From the NCBI GenBank assembly GCA_013141385.1, contig JABFRB010000034.1, positions 1 to 64,000 of the forward strand: a DNA stretch of 64,000 bases, read 5' to 3'. Positions 41,592-56,054 of the stretch are shown here, piece after piece (the first letter of the stretch is position 1; every line of letters starts with the position of its first letter). The stretch comes from Bacteroidales bacterium (lineage in GTDB: Bacteria > Bacteroidota > Bacteroidia > Bacteroidales > Tenuifilaceae). The position numbers and the translations under genes are program-made. Below the pieces are notes generated by a model, which saw only the letters and a program-made list of their open reading frames with translations, had not been told where the DNA came from and did not search any database.

Positions 41592-41678
41592 CAAAAAAAT
41601 ACCCCCGTATTGTAAGACGAGGGCGGCTTAAATGTTTTCACAACGGAATAATCCTTATTGTGAATTGCTTTTAGATTG
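41592..41678 (-). ncRNA. tracrRNA of the type II-C system
   Basis: The anti-repeat at about 41653-41678 (minus strand ACAATCTAAAAGCAATTCAC and on) pairs with the first 23 nt of the CRISPR repeat with one G-U and one C-A mismatch. Next come a small GGA/TCC hairpin, GTTGTGAAAACATTTAAG, and a terminator CCCTCGT/ACGGGGG with a T-run at 41593-41600. Together with Cas9 it binds crRNA and guides RNase III processing. Read-through to 41511 would give a form of about 165 nt. Orientation opposite to cas9. Confidence 0.88.
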
Positions 41679-41683
41679 TAGAA

Positions 41684-41712
41684 CAAATATAGACATAAAA
41701 ATTTAAAGTCAA
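41684..41712 (-). promoter_or_regulatory. tracrRNA promoter
   Basis: Minus-strand TTG (41710-41712), 18-nt gap, TATATTTG (41684-41691). The expected start, 6-8 nt later, is exactly at the beginning of the anti-repeat. The same TTG-N18-TAnnTTTG layout is found in every CRISPR repeat. The -33 box ends only 6 bp from the cas9 start codon. Confidence 0.8.
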
Positions 41713-46608: not shown

Positions 46609-47088
46609 ATGAGTAACTACATTTCAGCAGAAATTACCCAAGAGGTAATTGACAAAGTGACCGCCGATTTGGTCGACATTCAATCCAAACTGCCTTTTAT
46701 ACTTAAGCTAAGCCCTGCCGTTAAGCAGTCCATGCCCAAGCTGGAGGATTCCCGTGCTCCATTTGTAAACAAGTGCCTCTTCTATGCACGTAAAGAGTCT
46801 AAAATACTACCCCCTTATACCGATATCGATGAGCTGGAGCGCGATCTCAAGCTGTTCAATAACCTCCAGAATATTGCCAAGGAGGTTGACAGGCTGTCCG
46901 ATATGATTAACGATACCCGCATTGCTGCTGGTTCCGATGCTTACGTGGCAGCCCTCTCAATTTACAATTCGGTTAAACAGGCAGCCAAGATGAACGTTCC
47001 TGGCACCAAGGCCATTCTGGACGACCTGAAAACGGCGTTCGAAAGCATGTCCAACTCCAAGACCGCTAAAGAGGTAAAAGTCAGCTAG
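46609..47088 (+). CDS. Small conserved hypothetical protein between cas9 and cas1
   Basis: A 159-residue soluble, mostly helical protein (MSNYISAEITQEVIDKVTAD ..., with KLEDSRAPFVNKCLFYARK and IDELERDLKLFNNLQNIAKE). No signal peptide, membrane span or catalytic motif. I have an impression of similar proteins in other Bacteroidota genomes outside CRISPR loci but no name. Its codons are richer in G and C at third positions than those of cas9, suggesting a different origin. Nothing shows a role in CRISPR function; it may be a passenger. Confidence 0.75.
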   Translation: MSNYISAEITQEVIDKVTADLVDIQSKLPFILKLSPAVKQSMPKLEDSRAPFVNKCLFYARKESKILPPYTDIDELERDLKLFNNLQNIAKEVDRLSDMINDTRIAAGSDAYVAALSIYNSVKQAAKMNVPGTKAILDDLKTAFESMSNSKTAKEVKVS

Positions 47089-47915: not shown

Positions 47916-48605
47916 ATGAAAAAAACGAGGGAGATAGAATTAGAATATGGTGGTTTCTATCATATTTATAATCGTGGGAATAATGGAACAACATTATTCC
48001 ACACCCCTGATAACTACTACCACTTTCTTCGTCTTTACGAGAAATATGTCGAACCCATTGCCGATACCTACGCTTGGTGCTTGATGGGGAATCATTTTCA
48101 TTTGCTGGTGAGAATAAAGGAGGAGGGGGATATTGGTTTTCTTGCTGATTTTAACTCTTCCAGGTCTGGCGACTCTGGAAGGTTAAAATGGAAAACCTCT
48201 CACAACCGTCCAGAGTCCGAAGGACCTGGAAGAGTTATGGGTATGAAGAAACCAATACCCCACAGGATGTTTGGTCATCTTTTTAATTCCTATACAAAAT
48301 ACCTTAATCTAAAAATTGGAAGGACAGGCAGTCTTTTTGAGAAGAACTTTCATCGTATCCCCATCAATTCCGACAGGTACTTCCGAAACCTAGTGATGTA
48401 TATCCACCAAAACCCGGTACACCATGGTTTTACCAATGATTTTAAGGATTACCCTTGGTCATCGTACGGATCGGTGATATCAGAAAAAACCACAAGGGTT
48501 AAGCGCAAGGAGGTGCTGGATTGGTTCGATAACCGAAACAATTTTATATATGCCCATATTCAGCCCATTGATACGGATTACATCAATCACCTTATTGTGG
48601 AGTAA
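47916..48605 (+). CDS. REP-associated tyrosine transposase (RAYT, Y1/HUH family)
   Basis: A 229-residue single-strand DNA transposase of the IS200-like Y1 family. The HUH pair is HFH in GNHFHLLVRI, and the catalytic tyrosine is in YIHQNPVHHG, followed by DYPWSSY as in RAYTs. It is flanked by REP palindromes, three upstream and one downstream, as expected for this family, which moves REP sequences. Unusually, residues of about 79-107 (SSRSGDSGRLKW ... ESEGPGRV) are encoded by a pair of the same palindromes inserted in frame at 48153-48236, between the HUH motif and the conserved HLFNSYTKYLN segment. Activity is uncertain because of this insertion. Confidence 0.9.
   Translation: MKKTREIELEYGGFYHIYNRGNNGTTLFHTPDNYYHFLRLYEKYVEPIADTYAWCLMGNHFHLLVRIKEEGDIGFLADFNSSRSGDSGRLKWKTSHNRPESEGPGRVMGMKKPIPHRMFGHLFNSYTKYLNLKIGRTGSLFEKNFHRIPINSDRYFRNLVMYIHQNPVHHGFTNDFKDYPWSSYGSVISEKTTRVKRKEVLDWFDNRNNFIYAHIQPIDTDYINHLIVE
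48153..48236. repeat. REP pair inside the RAYT coding sequence
   Basis: Outer arms AACTCTTCCAGGTC (48153-48166) and GACCTGGAAGAGTT (48223-48236) are perfectly complementary; inner arms GACTCTGG (48171-48178) and CCAGAGTC (48210-48217) also pair. The 84 bp are a multiple of three and keep the frame open. Confidence 0.88.
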
Positions 48606-48869: not shown

Positions 48870-49775
48870 ATGATAAAACGTACCCTCCTTTTTGGAAACC
48901 CAGCATACCTTAGCCTGCGCGACCAGCAGCTGGTTGCCGATATCACTGGCAACGAAAAAAAGCAGATGACAGCTCCCGTAGAAGATATCGGGGTGGTGCT
49001 TTTGGATTCGTATCAAATTACCATAACACATCAGCTGCTAAACTCCTTACTTGCCAATAATACCGCCGTAATTACGTGCAACGAGAAGCACATGCCTTAC
49101 GGGCTGCTACTCCCCCTTGAGGGTAACACGCTGCAAAGCGAACGATTCAAGGATCAGATGGAGGCTAGCGTTCCGCTTAAAAAGCAGCTATGGCAGCAAA
49201 CGGTTCAGGCGAAGATTGCTAACCAAAGGTGGCTACTGCAAGCAAGAGGAATTGATGTTGAGCCCATGCGCTACTTTGAGGCGAACGTTCGGAGTGGTGA
49301 TCCCGATAACTACGAGGGGCGTGCTGCGGCATACTACTGGAAAAATCTTTTTGATGGTTTAACGGATGATGCATTTATAAGGGGGCGATACGAGGAGGAA
49401 CCCAATAATCTCCTTAACTACGGCTATGCAGTGTTACGTGCCATTGTTGCCCGAAGTTTGGTTGCCTCGGGTTTGCTTCCAACGCTGGGTATACATCATC
49501 ATAATAAGTATAACGCCTTTTGCTTAGCCGATGATATGATGGAATCGTACCGCCCGTTTGTTGATAAGCTGGTGCTTGAAATTGTGAACGATACTAAGGA
49601 TTGCTCGGTACTAACAAAGGAAATCAAGGCACGTTTGCTTGTGCTACCCGCAATTGATGTGCTGATTGATGGGCAAAAGAGCCCGCTGATGCTGGCTACA
49701 CAGCGAACCACCGCATCGCTGTACGATTGCTTTGAGGGGGTAAGCCGGAAGCTCTTACTCCCTGAGTTTATTTAG
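48870..49775 (+). CDS. cas1: CRISPR-associated integrase Cas1
   Basis: Integrase that, with Cas2, inserts new spacers at the leader end of the array. The 301-residue protein has the metal-binding residues Glu149 (NYEGRAAAYYW), a histidine of the HHH cluster at 209-211 (GIHHHN) and Asp222/Glu225 (ADDMMESYRPF). Beginning MIKRTLLFGNPAYLSL is typical of type II Cas1. Its codons are GC-richer than cas9. A REP-like palindrome separates it from cas2. Confidence 0.96.
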   Translation: MIKRTLLFGNPAYLSLRDQQLVADITGNEKKQMTAPVEDIGVVLLDSYQITITHQLLNSLLANNTAVITCNEKHMPYGLLLPLEGNTLQSERFKDQMEASVPLKKQLWQQTVQAKIANQRWLLQARGIDVEPMRYFEANVRSGDPDNYEGRAAAYYWKNLFDGLTDDAFIRGRYEEEPNNLLNYGYAVLRAIVARSLVASGLLPTLGIHHHNKYNAFCLADDMMESYRPFVDKLVLEIVNDTKDCSVLTKEIKARLLVLPAIDVLIDGQKSPLMLATQRTTASLYDCFEGVSRKLLLPEFI

Positions 49776-50171
<396 letters not shown>

Positions 50172-50180
50172 TGATTTAAC

Positions 50181-50208
50181 CTGTCAGAGTTCGCAGAACC
50201 TGACAGTG
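50181..50208. repeat. REP-like palindrome after cas2
   Basis: CTGTCAGAGTT-CGCAG-AACCTGACAG. Same family as the CTGTCAGG palindromes nearby. Confidence 0.7.
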
Positions 50209-50248
50209 TTTATAGTTTGAGGTATCTTTTTTTGAATAGAAACAAAAA

Positions 50249-50274
50249 ATCCACGGGTTTTGATTCCCGTGGAT
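50249..50274 (-). terminator. Terminator facing the CRISPR array
   Basis: ATCCACGGG (50249-50257) pairs with CCCGTGGAT (50266-50274). On the minus strand it is followed directly by TTTTTTG, so it would stop leftward transcripts leaving the array before cas2. Confidence 0.7.
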
Positions 50275-50320
50275 CTCCTTTTGGTCACTTTTTTTTAATC
50301 GAAAAATTGGTATAACCAGC

Positions 50321-50362
50321 TATTGGTCAGCTATAAAAACCTACCTATGCTGTGACCAATAT
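50321..50362. promoter_or_regulatory. Array boundary (leader) inverted repeat
   Basis: TATTGGTC at 50321-50328 is complementary to GACCAATA at 50355-50362 inside the first repeat. This makes a hairpin spanning the leader-repeat junction. The next 20 bp (AGCTATAAAAACCTACCTAT) are the base of the leader. Confidence 0.5.
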
Positions 50363-53300
50363 TTCAAAGATACAATCTGAAAGCAATTCACAACTCATGG
50401 ATGCAATGCATCATGTATCTTTTGGCTGTGACCAATATTTCAAAGATACAATCTGAAAGCAATTCACAACGGAAGAAGGGAGGAGGAGGGAGAAGGAAGG
50501 CTGTGACCAATATTTCAAAGATACAATCTGAAAGCAATTCACAACAACGTTAGTTGATGGTACCCCAGCTACTGGGCTGTGACCAATATTTCAAAGATAC
50601 AATCTGAAAGCAATTCACAACACGATGAAGGAGGTTTATCACCAATAAAATGCTGTGACCAATATTTCAAAGATACAATCTGAAAGCAATTCACAACCAG
50701 CTGGTTGAAGTATAGCCCTGCACTAACGCTGTGACCAATATTTCAAAGATACAATCTGAAAGCAATTCACAACGGAGAGCGTTACGATTGTTGCAATCTG
50801 ATCGCTGTGACCAATATTTCAAAGATACAATCTGAAAGCAATTCACAACTTAGTAGATTTGAGCGTGAAAATACTAACGGCTGTGACCAATATTTCAAAG
50901 ATACAATCTGAAAGCAATTCACAACGCGCATGGATCAATAACCTCCGCTACGATTGCTGTGACCAATATTTCAAAGATACAATCTGAAAGCAATTCACAA
51001 CTGTTGGCGATAAAGTTAAATTAAAGAAAGAGCTGTGACCAATATTTCAAAGATACAATCTGAAAGCAATTCACAACGAGAAGGAGGAGGGGGGAAGAGG
51101 GAGAGAAGCTGTGACCAATATTTCAAAGATACAATCTGAAAGCAATTCACAACTGAACCCGCATAAACACCAAAGAATAAATTGCTGTGACCAATATTTC
51201 AAAGATACAATCTGAAAGCAATTCACAACTGCTTCGGTCTGATCCTGCCCATCAAGGCTGCTGTGACCAATATTTCAAAGATACAATCTGAAAGCAATTC
51301 ACAACTATTGCCCGCATCTCCATCATTAGTAGTTTGCTGTGACCAATATTTCAAAGATACAATCTGAAAGCAATTCACAACTATATATGCCCAATTTCGT
51401 CAACCTCCCATGCTGTGACCAATATTTCAAAGATACAATCTGAAAGCAATTCACAACCCTCATAATCAAACCCAACGATGTCGAGGTGCTGTGACCAATA
51501 TTTCAAAGATACAATCTGAAAGCAATTCACAACTATATATTTGCAATATAAATATTAAATAATGCTGTGACCAATATTTCAAAGATACAATCTGAAAGCA
51601 ATTCACAACAACAAAACGCTGAGGGTTTGAAGAATAATTGCTGTGACCAATATTTCAAAGATACAATCTGAAAGCAATTCACAACTGGGGTGCGCAAAAC
51701 AACTTGAAAAGTACCGCTGTGACCAATATTTCAAAGATACAATCTGAAAGCAATTCACAACTAAAAAGCTCCTTGCTCCGATCAATTATTTGCTGTGACC
51801 AATATTTCAAAGATACAATCTGAAAGCAATTCACAACGTACACAGGGTGCTTTTTAATCCAAGCCCCGCTGTGACCAATATTTCAAAGATACAATCTGAA
51901 AGCAATTCACAACTATCTTTTTACTACTAAATTAGGATACCAAGCTGTGACCAATATTTCAAAGATACAATCTGAAAGCAATTCACAACAAATTCGTCTA
52001 TACTAACAATTTCTTCGTTGCTGTGACCAATATTTCAAAGATACAATCTGAAAGCAATTCACAACTCGGTTTAGTTTTACCATTTTTTAAAACAAGCTGT
52101 GACCAATATTTCAAAGATACAATCTGAAAGCAATTCACAACAAATAAACTATTTAAAAAATTTGAAAATTCGCTGTGACCAATATTTCAAAGATACAATC
52201 TGAAAGCAATTCACAACATGATAGTATGTAGGCTATCTAATGCAATTGCTGTGACCAATATTTCAAAGATACAATCTGAAAGCAATTCACAACGTACCGG
52301 TGAAGAGATATTTGCAGAAAATGTGCTGTGACCAATATTTCAAAGATACAATCTGAAAGCAATTCACAACATCTCCGATGCACCAACCACACCAATACAT
52401 GCTGTGACCAATATTTCAAAGATACAATCTGAAAGCAATTCACAACAGTGCTAGATGACACTTGTCATCTGGTATAGCTGTGACCAATATTTCAAAGATA
52501 CAATCTGAAAGCAATTCACAACATTGGATAACACCAGATTTTGCTCATATCGGCTGTGACCAATATTTCAAAGATACAATCTGAAAGCAATTCACAACAT
52601 AATCCATCGTTGGTATTAACACCAAACAGCTGTGACCAATATTTCAAAGATACAATCTGAAAGCAATTCACAACCGATAGGAGAGTATGGAACAAAAACT
52701 TTACGCTGTGACCAATATTTCAAAGATACAATCTGAAAGCAATTCACAACTAGTATGGCTCATGATAGGAAAATGTGGAGGCTGTGACCAATATTTCAAA
52801 GATACAATCTGAAAGCAATTCACAACTCAGGGCTTGAGGTTGGTCAAGTTGCTATGGCTGTGACCAATATTTCAAAGATACAATCTGAAAGCAATTCACA
52901 ACAGTACAACTAATATGTACACAAATGATATTGCTGTGACCAATATTTCAAAGATACAATCTGAAAGCAATTCACAACAGTACAACTAATATGTACACAA
53001 ATGATATTGCTGTGACCAATATTTCAAAGATACAATCTGAAAGCAATTCACAACGAATTAGTATTAGTTTGCCACCACAAAACAGCTGTGACCAATATTT
53101 CAAAGATACAATCTGAAAGCAATTCACAACCTTCCGTCTGGAGTTGTCCTGTCTGTTCTTGCTGTGACCAATATTTCAAAGATACAATCTGAAAGCAATT
53201 CACAACTGATAAAACATTGCAAGCAATTAGTAATGAGCTGTGACCAATATTTCAAAGATACAATCTGAAAGCAATTCACAACTTGGTGTGTCATCGGGAG

Positions 53301-54345
53301 ATTTACTATTTGGCTGTGACCAATATTTCAAAGATACAATCTGAAAGCAATTCACAACGGAGGTGTAGTTGCTTGGGCCGTGTTGGGTGCTGTGACCAAT
53401 ATTTCAAAGATACAATCTGAAAGCAATTCACAACTTTTGACCGTTCTTTATGTCAAAAGTTTTGCTGTGACCAATATTTCAAAGATACAATCTGAAAGCA
53501 ATTCACAACGTTTTAATGTATTCAATATCAGCATTTACAGCTGTGACCAATATTTCAAAGATACAATCTGAAAGCAATTCACAACGCTGATATATATCTG
53601 CATGAAATGGGACACGCTGTGACCAATATTTCAAAGATACAATCTGAAAGCAATTCACAACGATGCAAACATAAGCCCTTTAAAAGCAAAAGCTGTGACC
53701 AATATTTCAAAGATACAATCTGAAAGCAATTCACAACGGTGATGAAGTGGGTATTATCGGGGTTGGAGCTGTGACCAATATTTCAAAGATACAATCTGAA
53801 AGCAATTCACAACCTGCAATCGGAGTTCATGATAGGGCTATTAGCTGTGACCAATATTTCAAAGATACAATCTGAAAGCAATTCACAACTATCCTCCTTA
53901 TTTAAGCCTAAAGAAGCGTGCTGTGACCAATATTTCAAAGATACAATCTGAAAGCAATTCACAACAACCGACACTAAGCTAAATGCGAGCCACAAGCTGT
54001 GACCAATATTTCAAAGATACAATCTGAAAGCAATTCACAACCCATTGGCAATTGCTAAAAATCTCACTTGTGCTGTGACCAATATTTCAAAGATACAATC
54101 TGAAAGCAATTCACAACATCAACCCCTACGCCTATAATTCCAACCTCGCTGTGACCAATATTTCAAAGATACAATCTGAAAGCAATTCACAACAAATAGC
54201 TGATGCTGGATTATTTCCAGTGCGCTGTGACCAATATTTCAAAGATACAATCTGAAAGCAATTCACAACATCAAACCAGAACATTCTTGAGCCGCAACAG
54301 CTGTGACCAATATTTCAAAGATACAATCTGAAAGCAATTCACAAC
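50350..54345 (-). promoter_or_regulatory. Promoter embedded in each canonical CRISPR repeat
   Basis: In crRNA sense the repeat has TTG at positions 2-4 and TATCTTTG at 23-30 with an 18-nt gap: a full Bacteroidota promoter. Transcription would start at about position 36-39, eight to ten nt before the spacer. This gives one start per spacer, as known for promoters in Neisseria type II-C repeats, but with the Bacteroidota consensus. Confidence 0.65.
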
Positions 54346-54375: not shown

Positions 54376-54453
54376 GCTGTGACCAATATTTCAAAGATAC
54401 AATCTGAACCGAGCGTTCTTTGTGAGTTCGGCGCAGCCAAAGCAATTCACAAC
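54376..54453 (-). repeat. CRISPR repeat 54, with 32-bp insertion
   Basis: After GATACAATCTGA the repeat is interrupted by 32 bp starting ACCGAGCGTTCTTTGTGAG and ending GGCGCAGCCA, then resumes AAGCAATTCACAAC. Total length 78. Confidence 0.9.
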
Positions 54454-54483
54454 ATGGCTTCTTATGAATATTGTCATAAATGG

Positions 54484-54561
54484 GCTGTGACCAATATTTC
54501 AAAGATACAATCTGAACCGAGCGTACTTTGCGAGTTCGGCGTAGCCAAAGCAATTCACAAC
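54484..54561 (-). repeat. CRISPR repeat 55, with the same insertion
   Basis: Same position and length of insertion as repeat 54, differing at a few bases (GCGTACTTTGCGAG, GGCGTAGCC). The CRISPR parts are intact. Confidence 0.9.
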
Positions 54562-54591
54562 ACAACCAGAGACACTATTGATATCCCAATT

Positions 54592-54683
54592 GCTGTGACC
54601 AATATTTCAAAGATACAATCTGAACCGAGCGTTTTCCCGATAAAAAGCATCGGGACAAGTTTTGCGAGTTCGCTGAAAGCAAT
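54592..54683 (-). repeat. CRISPR repeat 56, terminal, with a nested insertion
   Basis: The same insertion site carries CCGAGCG, then CCCGATAAAAAGCATCGGG with flanking T/A runs, then GCGAGTTCG. The insertion is bounded by CTGAA on both sides. The repeat then decays after AAAGCAATC. This is the distal end of the array. Confidence 0.85.
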
Positions 54684-54693
54684 CTACGATGAA

Positions 54694-54838
54694 TGGGGTA
54701 GTTTAAATAATTTGACTCTAAGGTGTTATCGGCTAATCGCAAAATGCGATACAATTATCGCAAAATATGATAATCTGCATTACAACCTCATCAGGAAATG
54801 ATGCAACACCAAAAATTGATTGTACAATGCAATTCTCC
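54694..54838 (+). repeat. Flanking repeat, copy C (right of CRISPR array)
   Basis: Starts GGGGTAGTTTAAATAATTTG and ends near TACAATGCAATTCTC; direct repeat of copy A at 40764-40906. Contains ATCGCAAAATGCGAT, a palindrome. The remainder to 54983 shows no gene. Confidence 0.7.
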
Positions 54839-54983
54839 TCCTTTTTTAAGGTGGGGCAGAGGAGAGTAAGTTTTGTAGTTAAAACTTCCGATCTCTTTAA
54901 GATATCATAACCATTAGTAAAGTACCCTATAGGTGTTTAGCGTATTATTTTATTAGAAAGATCTAAGAATTGTTGCTATTTAG

Positions 54984-56054
54984 TTACTTTTTATTTCCCA
55001 TCCACGAGATGTATAGCTTAAAAGATACTCCATGATTTATAAAGAAAAAACTAGAGTCATATCCCAAATCCGTGTTATTATCCGCTGCACCTCCAAAGCC
55101 CATAATAGCAGCACCTTCTAAGTCGTAACCAGCTGCAAATAGCAGGAATACTGGCCCTGCATTTTTGTAATACCTAAATCCAACGGAAAGAGAGTAATGA
55201 ACTAATGCTGTGAATGAATTGCTCTTAACAAATGTTTTACCAGGGTTAAGGGCTTCGGCCATATTTACCCCATAGTCAGAAATTTTACCCGTTCCAAAAC
55301 CGATTTTATCTTGTGTTGAAGCATACATTCCGAAACGCATTGCTGGTCTTCCCGGTATACTACCCAATTTACCACCTGTCAGGCAAAGCTGGCGGAGAAT
55401 ATCAAATCCAAAACAAGCAGAATAAAATTTGGCAGTGAATAGTGTATCATATGCAGGAATACCAAATTTTTGATGCTCTCTTCCCCCCGGTGTTACCAAT
55501 GTGCTGAATTTCATAGGGAATCCCATAGATGTATAACCTACACCCCAATATGTTCCAAGAATTCTATTCATTACAGCCCCTCCAGCCATGTGTTTATACA
55601 TGTTTGAAGTTTTTATAAGTTCTACTGTAAAATATTTATTGCTAAATTTACGACTGGTAAAATAACCGTCAGTAGAGGGGAGTTGTCCAGACCATGTAAA
55701 AACTCCAGAAACCTCCGAACTTTGAAGTTTGAGCCAATAATTTTTTAGGTTAATATACCCTCCGTACTTGTATGCTTTTCCAACCAAGTTATTTTCAACA
55801 TTTGCCGAGAGTCCAAATCGTAAACCAATTCTGCGTAAGGCAAAGTTGCCTTCAAAGGATGATTGTGAGTTTATATCGAATTTGTATTTTAAGTACTTTC
55901 CATCATCATCGTTGAGGTTGAAAACCTTCCATTTTAATGCTGGGATATATGAAACACCTAAAAAGGCTGGAAGCGTATCTTTTTTGCTTTGTGAGAAAAG
56001 GGAAGTAGGTACTATTAAAGCTACTGAGAAAAGAACAATGAGAAAATTACGCAT
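54984..56054 (-). CDS. Secreted outer-membrane-type protein of unknown function
   Basis: A 356-residue protein with signal peptide (FLIVLFSVALIVPTSLFSQ) and a mature part rich in Gly, Phe and Tyr in alternating patterns (ALRRIGLRFGLSANVE, HYSLSVGFRYYKNAGPVFLL), compatible with a barrel. The end HGVSFKLYISWMGNKK lacks a C-terminal aromatic residue. No known family is recognised. It is monocistronic by spacing. Confidence 0.7.
   Translation of the reverse strand: MRNFLIVLFSVALIVPTSLFSQSKKDTLPAFLGVSYIPALKWKVFNLNDDDGKYLKYKFDINSQSSFEGNFALRRIGLRFGLSANVENNLVGKAYKYGGYINLKNYWLKLQSSEVSGVFTWSGQLPSTDGYFTSRKFSNKYFTVELIKTSNMYKHMAGGAVMNRILGTYWGVGYTSMGFPMKFSTLVTPGGREHQKFGIPAYDTLFTAKFYSACFGFDILRQLCLTGGKLGSIPGRPAMRFGMYASTQDKIGFGTGKISDYGVNMAEALNPGKTFVKSNSFTALVHYSLSVGFRYYKNAGPVFLLFAAGYDLEGAAIMGFGGAADNNTDLGYDSSFFFINHGVSFKLYISWMGNKK

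Follow-up and report, generated by a model that had tools for sequence, protein, structure and literature searches.

We present evidence that a clustered regularly interspaced short palindromic repeats (CRISPR) array of a Bacteroidales bacterium (Tenuifilaceae) very probably has a phylum-specific promoter core, comprising a -7 box and a start base, built into its repeats, as do many long repeats of related type II-C systems in the Bacteroidota. The array lies in the first 64,000 nucleotides (nt) of contig JABFRB010000034.1 (assembly GCA_013141385.1), and this whole stretch is referred to here as the window. Each of its 53 intact 46-nt repeats, read in the sense of the CRISPR RNA (crRNA), has TTG at positions 2-4 and, after 18 nt, TATCTTTG at positions 23-30. 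The original prediction had described this layout, as well as a promoter of the same layout and gap in front of the trans-activating crRNA (tracrRNA), and both descriptions proved accurate. The crRNA sense is the minus strand, because the only anti-repeat found in the genome within three mismatches (41658-41680) matches repeat positions 2-24, and the array would be read, as judged from sequence, from its far end toward cas2. A whole-genome search with the first 30 nt of the repeat, allowing up to three mismatches, returned 53 matches, all exact and all on one contig and strand, while TTG-N18-TAnnTTTG occurs outside the array four times in the window (both strands), once as the tracrRNA promoter itself.

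With the Cas9 of the window as query, relatives were found in 65 of 395 Bacteroidota genomes. Together with the window, the data set of 146 II-C loci comprises 65 regions around these matches (L039-L103) and a further 80 named loci, taken from genome contigs as the best 80 among 547 confirmed stretches. An oriented array was present in 113 of them, 84 with repeats of 44-48 nt and 29 with repeats called as 36 nt, three of which (L047, L058, and L063) resemble long repeats cut short; L008 was left out, as were three spurious arrays. The control set came from 40 loci around other Cas1 genes, 33 of which yielded a total of 37 arrays (34 distinct repeats). From their Cas1 matches and repeats these were presumed to be of types I and III, although one of the 37 (L155, five copies) may not be CRISPR. 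These repeats are shorter than the long II-C repeats and of other composition, and are thus a weak control.

Of 79 distinct long repeats, 42 have an exact TAnnTTTG beyond position 17 in crRNA sense and none has one in antisense, against a mean of 1.54 and a maximum of 7 in 2000 shufflings. After clustering, the exact box was present in 28/58 clusters at 85% identity, 19/38 at 75%, and 5/13 at 65%; it was absent on either strand from all 34 control repeats, with the reservation just given, and spacers of the same arrays held it in 25 of 2149 cases in sense and 42 in antisense. With no motif preselected, TAnnTTTG was the commonest gapped pattern of the form NNnnNNNN beyond position 20 (22 of 44 clusters, the next pattern reaching 12), and the mirror pattern AAnnTACA on the antisense strand (15/44) marks the same site. 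A weight matrix built from 66 boxes upstream of tracrRNAs accepted 45 of the 79 long repeats in sense and none in antisense (shuffles: mean 3.0, maximum 9), together with 4 of 18 distinct 36-nt repeats and, among the 34 controls, none in sense and one in antisense. All six box letters are matched by 43 of the 84 long repeats, five by 33, and four by 8; the five-letter boxes deviate at box position 7 (14 repeats), 8 (16), or 2 (3), and 19 five-letter tracrRNA boxes, taken from a narrower search range, at position 5 (9), 7 (2), or 8 (8). As in Flavobacterium johnsoniae, G is missing from the two free positions in 41 of 42 exact boxes.

The place of the box is less constant than its letters. In the 43 exact repeats it starts at position 23 (9 repeats), 24 (18), 25 (1), 26 (5), 27 (7), 31 (1), or 32 (2), and ends 7 to 17 nt before the 3' end of the repeat; since the letters are kept while the place shifts, selection as a motif is likelier than carry-over. 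Sliding of the register is also what we hold responsible for the box not showing in the column information of an unselected MAFFT alignment of the repeats; a further column table was made on box-selected repeats, and its box columns were not used as evidence. The original prediction of a Bacteroidota-type -7 box along the crRNA sense is therefore borne out by the excess over shuffles, antisense, and control repeats, with a start that slides between 23 and 32. Two long repeats without an exact box at 23-27 (L182 and L224) have TATATTTG at 32, from which a start would precede the spacer by 3-4 nt.

For the window, the predicted duplex with the tracrRNA takes up repeat positions 1-23, with one position unpaired, and leaves 24-46 free. 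An anti-repeat hit at the score limit was obtained in 80 of the 84 long-repeat loci and was lacking in four, and a few of the 80 hits (e.g. L060, L089, and L226) could be misplaced copies of the repeat. The anti-repeat match extends to positions 24-27 in 44 of these loci, falls short of 24 in 22, and passes 27 in 14; in 37 of the 41 exact-box loci with a hit it stops before the TTTG of the box. The TA would accordingly lie at the duplex edge and the TTTG mostly outside it, such that the box appears for the most part not to be demanded by pairing with tracrRNA; the excess of TAnnTTTG mostly goes beyond such a demand, a point on which the promoter interpretation had been made to depend. Upstream of the anti-repeat, the same 80 loci have an exact TAnnTTTG in 47 cases and five of its six letters in 28. 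In 22 of 40 distinct loci the base at which the tracrRNA is predicted to start is paired with the first box base of the repeat, and in 29 the two agree to within one nt; the coupling of duplex end and box start is moderate (permutation p 0.0012 by aligned position and 0.052 by ungapped length; r about 0.25).

Promoters of the Bacteroidota primary sigma factor have been described in front of genes and small RNAs (PMC6847099, PMC7366714; these and the other papers cited are represented by the parts accessible to us). Many F. johnsoniae starts are located 4 or 5 nt beyond the -7 element, whose two free positions are hardly ever G (PMC6847099). The CRISPR repeats share with these promoters TAnnTTTG, the lack of G at the free positions, and a predicted start 4-5 nt downstream, and differ from them in where the element stands, namely inside a repeat (PMC6847099, PMC7366714). 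Counting from the final G of the box, position G+4 is a pyrimidine in 42 of 43 exact-box repeats and G+5 is A in 28; the pyrimidine-A pair stands at this place in 28 of 43 repeats and at ten other offsets in 0 to 8, although pairs of the looser pyrimidine-purine type are common at G+8 too (27/41). Among the 18 of 21 tail clusters (75% identity) that could be shuffled, the pyrimidine-A pair is present in 10 (shuffle mean 3.1, p 0.0002) and the pyrimidine at G+4 in all 18 (shuffle mean 8.7). The pair peaks at the same distance in tracrRNAs (27/47), where pairing with the repeat constrains these bases as well. With T at G+4 and A at G+5, the window repeat fits, at the level of sequence, a -7 TAHHTTTG with a start base 4-5 nt on. 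Elsewhere in the window, 33 upstream regions contain TAHHTTTG at 1.87 per kb in gene sense (13 occurrences; shuffle mean 4.7, maximum 14) and 1.29 per kb on the other strand, compared with 0.33 in coding sequence, a density that agrees with use of the box by the host, though it is not strand-specific.

The same letters might be kept for another task of the repeat, such as recognition by Cas1-Cas2, service as a ruler motif, or a feature of the crRNA as RNA, with the likeness to a -7 element being incidental. An integrase signal could plausibly lie in mid-repeat, and the two free positions read TC in 34 of 43 exact boxes, which is more uniform than a promoter needs. We nevertheless consider this explanation unlikely, given that a ruler would forbid the sliding of the start and of the distance to the 3' end, that a pyrimidine-A pair stands at promoter distance, and that one weight matrix fits both the repeats and the tracrRNA upstream regions.

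Orientation bears on a second alternative, by which one precursor is transcribed from a single external promoter and cut by RNase III with tracrRNA, as in type II-A. All but one of the 84 long-repeat arrays read toward cas2, the exception (L205) lying on a short contig with no cas1 or cas2 hit, and of 71 complete arrays, 39 show the greater degeneracy in the distal end repeat and 2 in the proximal one, with no difference between the ends in 30. The window array has cas2 at its 3' side and its degenerate repeats at its 5' side, and so appears to be read toward the leader. A single precursor is usual for other CRISPR types, and in Riemerella anatipestifer, according to the accessible text, no promoter was found in the repeats while several were predicted in the leader (PMC5006608). 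However, the arrays run toward cas2, and a promoter in the leader would therefore transcribe the wrong strand and could not make crRNAs. Nor are boxes in the flanks clearly above dinucleotide shuffles. Within 200 nt before the distal end, TAHHTTTG occurs in 9 of 57 arrays, which may be counted in favor of an external promoter but is no significant excess over the 5.9 expected (standard deviation 2.2, maximum 12), with 4/57 vs 5.0 on the opposite strand; leaders have it toward the array in 3 of 78 cases vs 5.0 (maximum 11), again no excess, and along the crRNA sense in 2 of 78 vs 5.4. In the window, TAHHTTTG is absent from 54681-55200 on the crRNA strand and from 50151-50348 toward the array. 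Taken together, these results make a single external promoter quite improbable.

That the box is a functionless relic of common descent is barely credible, for although the 84 long repeats are evidently related, because their first 17 nt are much alike, and the exact set mostly reads TATCTTTG, exact boxes also accompany Cas9s with 29% (L057), 34% (L056), and 36% (L049) identity to that of the window over the matched part, occur in shifted register and with other free positions (TAACTTTG, TATTTTTG, TAAATTTG, and TATATTTG), and are followed by three bases almost without information.

Several findings nonetheless weigh against a promoter core in the repeats. The exact box is missing from 37 of the 79 distinct long repeats, some of which read TTTCTTTG without the A; the predominance of TC at the free positions implies that descent accounts for part of the likeness; and four of the 41 exact-box loci have an anti-repeat match that reaches into the box. 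As promoter evidence the TTG does not count independently: 83 of the 84 long repeats have it at positions 2-4, whether a box follows or not, it lies inside the tracrRNA-paired stretch, and it corresponds to a -33 motif that is weak genome-wide in F. johnsoniae (PMC6847099); moreover, L043 has an exact box but CTG where the TTG would stand. The window repeat does have TTG at an 18-nt gap, which may be a -33 element or may reflect the constraints of pairing and of the repeat end. Box starts of 23-27 give TTG gaps of 18-22, and 41 of 80 tracrRNA upstream regions are without TTG at a gap of 15-23; two parts of the original prediction, the -33 TTG as evidence of a promoter and the special standing of the shared 18-nt gap, are therefore not supported, and the matched, constitutive and simultaneous expression of tracrRNA and crRNAs that it suggested would be no more than a possibility. 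Variants among interior repeats (20 events in 10 of 73 arrays) touch the box at 3 of 584 sites, which is no depletion and too few events to judge by; as a selection test they were set aside as uninformative, the rate being equal in the box and elsewhere. Among repeats called as 36 nt, the exact box is present in 4 of 23 distinct sequences, and it is absent upstream of the arrays (0/17). As these arrays have the box neither in the repeat nor upstream, either another start signal serves there or the argument from a missing external promoter is weak.

Two further observations concern the 36-nt class. A -7 box running on into the spacer (TAnnTT, then TG) was considered and rejected, as TG at the spacer start (13/272, 19/274, and 2/115) showed no bias. 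When L069, L073, L077, and L082 are set against other 36-nt loci such as L070-L100, the repeats of this class are mostly without TAnnTTTG and often have TAnATT or GATATT at 31-36. In Neisseria repeats, a -10 box is said to occupy the place corresponding to 31-36.

A promoter core in the repeat would imply the following course of events. The 46-nt repeat would present TATCTTTG at 23-30 to the Bacteroidota primary sigma factor, and transcription would begin at A35. The transcript would comprise 12 nt of repeat tail and the spacer, mostly 30 nt long, and would continue into the next repeat, the first 23 nt of which would pair with tracrRNA, itself transcribed from a promoter of this kind; processing, we infer, would follow. 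Transcription would proceed toward cas2, from the oldest spacer to the newest, and transcripts may overlap between units because nothing is known to stop them there, while those exiting the array would end at the terminator-like hairpin of the leader. The original prediction had envisaged about 53 independent units. That figure calls for revision: the box of the leader-proximal repeat is aimed into the leader and not into a spacer, so that 52 spacers follow an intact repeat and three an altered one, and single transcripts may span units.

The altered repeats, which start at 54376, 54484, and 54592, extend the array beyond 54345; the extent first proposed, 50350-54345, covers the intact repeats (50349-54345) but not these three. 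They keep repeat positions 14-46, and this 33-nt part with the box and predicted start is consequently present 56 times and the full layout of TTG, gap, and box 53 times, the TTG being displaced by the insert. The insert of about 32 nt occupies the same site in these three oldest repeats, is near-identical in the first two, and is longer and different in the third; it separates the tracrRNA-paired part from the box, and its pattern had no match elsewhere in the genome within three mismatches. More generally, the outermost degenerate repeats of the long class (41 cases) have lost 0.330 per site in positions 1-17 and 0.047 from 18 to the end, with the box kept in 29 of 31. We did not adopt this retention as evidence, as much of the pattern is explained by an edge effect: 19 degenerate ends of control arrays have also lost their outer part (0.253 vs 0.076).

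The leader has features that may relate to the promoter of the last repeat. A stretch of at least 8 nt complementary to the tail of the leader-proximal repeat is present in 33 of 78 leaders (shuffles: mean 3.3, maximum 7), compared with 0/78 in direct orientation, 3/78 for the repeat head, and 2/57 for the distal flank. When leaders were swapped between loci, such a stretch was found in 10 of 30 matched clusters vs 4.5% of mismatched pairs (permutation p <0.0002), and from this drop it follows that repeat tail and leader change together. In the window leader, a repeat-complementary stretch (within 50281-50348) is followed by a hairpin at 50279-50244 that is strongly terminator-like for crRNA-sense transcripts. 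By a simple in-house rule, a terminator-like site past the array end was found on the crRNA strand in 49 of 83 loci and on the other strand in 39, which does not demonstrate enrichment. A hairpin of leader and repeat is known from types II-A and VI, and type II-C is said to work by different means, located at the array's opposite end (PMC13187072, PMC12080349, accessible parts). We tentatively hypothesize, as a possibility we would not yet favor, that the Bacteroidota II-C repeat was lengthened to 44-48 nt so as to hold a complete promoter of the phylum type, with the whole -7 box and the initiator, making its strength independent of the spacer and with the box beginning where the tracrRNA duplex ends. 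The spacerless leader-proximal promoter would then be countered by the leader, whose complementary stretch changes along with the repeat tail and, in the window and at some other loci, precedes a terminator.

Work of 2013 by Zhang and by Dugar, cited in PMC13187072 and PMC12080349, reportedly placed promoters within the II-C repeats of Neisseria meningitidis and Campylobacter jejuni. In these, a 36-nt repeat is said to end in a sigma-70 -10 element, and transcription to start in or near the spacer. The Bacteroidota systems resemble them, here as read from sequence, in that each repeat would hold a promoter, transcription would run toward the end at which spacers are acquired, and tracrRNA and Cas9 are of type II-C; unlike them, they would use a Bacteroidota -7 box inside a 46-nt repeat, with a predicted start that leaves 12 nt of repeat before the spacer.

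An extended -10 likeness has been noted in the last nine nt of the Clostridium cellulolyticum repeat (PMC7038990). For Flavobacterium columnare, a repeat promoter was proposed from TTG, in an array read toward the leader on the basis of eight reads (PMC8092290), and for Flavobacterium psychrophilum, likewise from TTG, with both parts of a II-C array split by an insertion sequence being transcribed (PMC10309648). These accounts, in their accessible parts, name a TTG 33 or 35 bp before the spacer and name TAnnTTTG for cas9 (PMC8092290, PMC10309648). The likeness to our case lies in a repeat-encoded promoter and in reads toward the leader or from both split parts; the difference is the -7 box, placed here in the repeat, whereas there only TTG is given for the repeat. 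R. anatipestifer CRISPR1, whose leaders were screened with the BDGP neural-network tool, is similar by description, as opposed to repeat sequence, in its 47-nt repeats, its anti-repeat upstream of cas9, and its cas9, cas1, and cas2 beside the array (PMC5006608). The 47-nt repeat of Prevotella intermedia, as printed, has TATCTTTG at 24 in crRNA sense, and the accessible text of that paper names no repeat promoter (PMC5608340). In the parts available, the word "promoter" was not found in a Bacteroides fragilis CRISPR survey (PMC9367070), nor "CRISPR" in a start-site map of F. psychrophilum (PMC9723704); Bacteroides thetaiotaomicron has no annotated CRISPR (PMC7366714). In a literature search that took in few subscription papers, no report of TAnnTTTG inside such repeats was found. 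The suggestion that the arrangement may not have been described thus needs dividing: repeat promoters had already been proposed for Flavobacterium II-C from TTG, and on our best reading what may be new is the phylum-specific -7 promoter core in the repeat, repeat-encoded promoters in II-C as such being known.

The surrounding locus (Table 1) has the features of type II-C, namely Cas9, cas1 and cas2 without csn2 or cas4, and a tracrRNA with anti-repeat near cas9. The Cas9 matches TIGR01865 at 416 bits (cut-off 100) and also RuvC_III, HNH_4, and Cas9-BH. Between cas9 and cas1 lie two further open reading frames (ORFs) of at least 150 amino acids (aa), neither matched by a csn2 or cas4 model; that at 46609-47088 had no NCBIfam or Pfam match at E 0.001, and that at 47916-48605 resembles REP-associated tyrosine transposases (NF047646, 53.9 bits, under the cut-off of 80). 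The spacers between the intact repeats are 30 nt long in 49 cases, 29 in two, and 31 in one, and 51 of the 52 are distinct; the identical spacers at 52903-52932 and 52979-53008 are neighbors, as if a repeat-spacer unit had been duplicated, and those at 50471-50499 and 51078-51107 consist only of purines on the plus strand.

Table 1. Features of the II-C locus, in positions of the window
Feature	Position	Strand	Remarks
tracrRNA, predicted	41593..41679	-	start A at 41679 to T run of terminator-like hairpin
Anti-repeat of tracrRNA	41658-41680	-	matches repeat positions 2-24
tracrRNA promoter, predicted	41684..41712	-	TTG 41712-41710, 18 nt, TATATTTG 41691-41684
cas9, 1535 aa	41719..46326	+	TIGR01865; RuvC_III, HNH_4, bridge helix
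ORF after cas9, 159 aa	46609-47088		no family match
REP-type transposase-like ORF between cas9 and cas1	47916-48605		NF047646
cas1, type II family	48870..49775	+	TIGR03639
cas2	49830..50171	+	TIGR01573
Leader between cas2 and array, 177 bp	50172..50348	n/a	
Terminator-like hairpin with T run	50244..50279	-	for crRNA-sense transcripts exiting the array
Leader stretch complementary to tail of leader-proximal repeat	50281..50288	-	pairs in predicted fold
Second leader stretch complementary to repeat tail	50321-50329		
Array, 53 identical 46-nt repeats with 52 spacers between	50349..54345	-	Rfam RF01362, 53 matches
-7 box TATCTTTG of leader-proximal repeat	50365..50372	-	offset equal in all intact repeats
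Predicted transcription start, A after T	50360	-	box G +5 nt; equal offset in all intact repeats; from PMC6847099 distance and initiator signal
Three leader-distal insert-bearing repeats	54376..54680	-	box and predicted start retained; insert lies after about position 15 of the repeat

If the repeats do act as promoters, each stored memory of a virus could be read out singly, and the expression of leader-directed arrays without a clear external promoter would be explained in a phylum whose promoters are not of the sigma-70 type. Such activity would speak against the published statement, in the accessible text, that the R. anatipestifer repeats, of the same length class, have no promoter (PMC5006608), and arrays split by a transposon would stay active on both sides, contrary to what was assumed for P. 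intermedia (PMC5608340). More generally, the repeat would offer a single-unit design for the expression of crRNAs in Bacteroidota.

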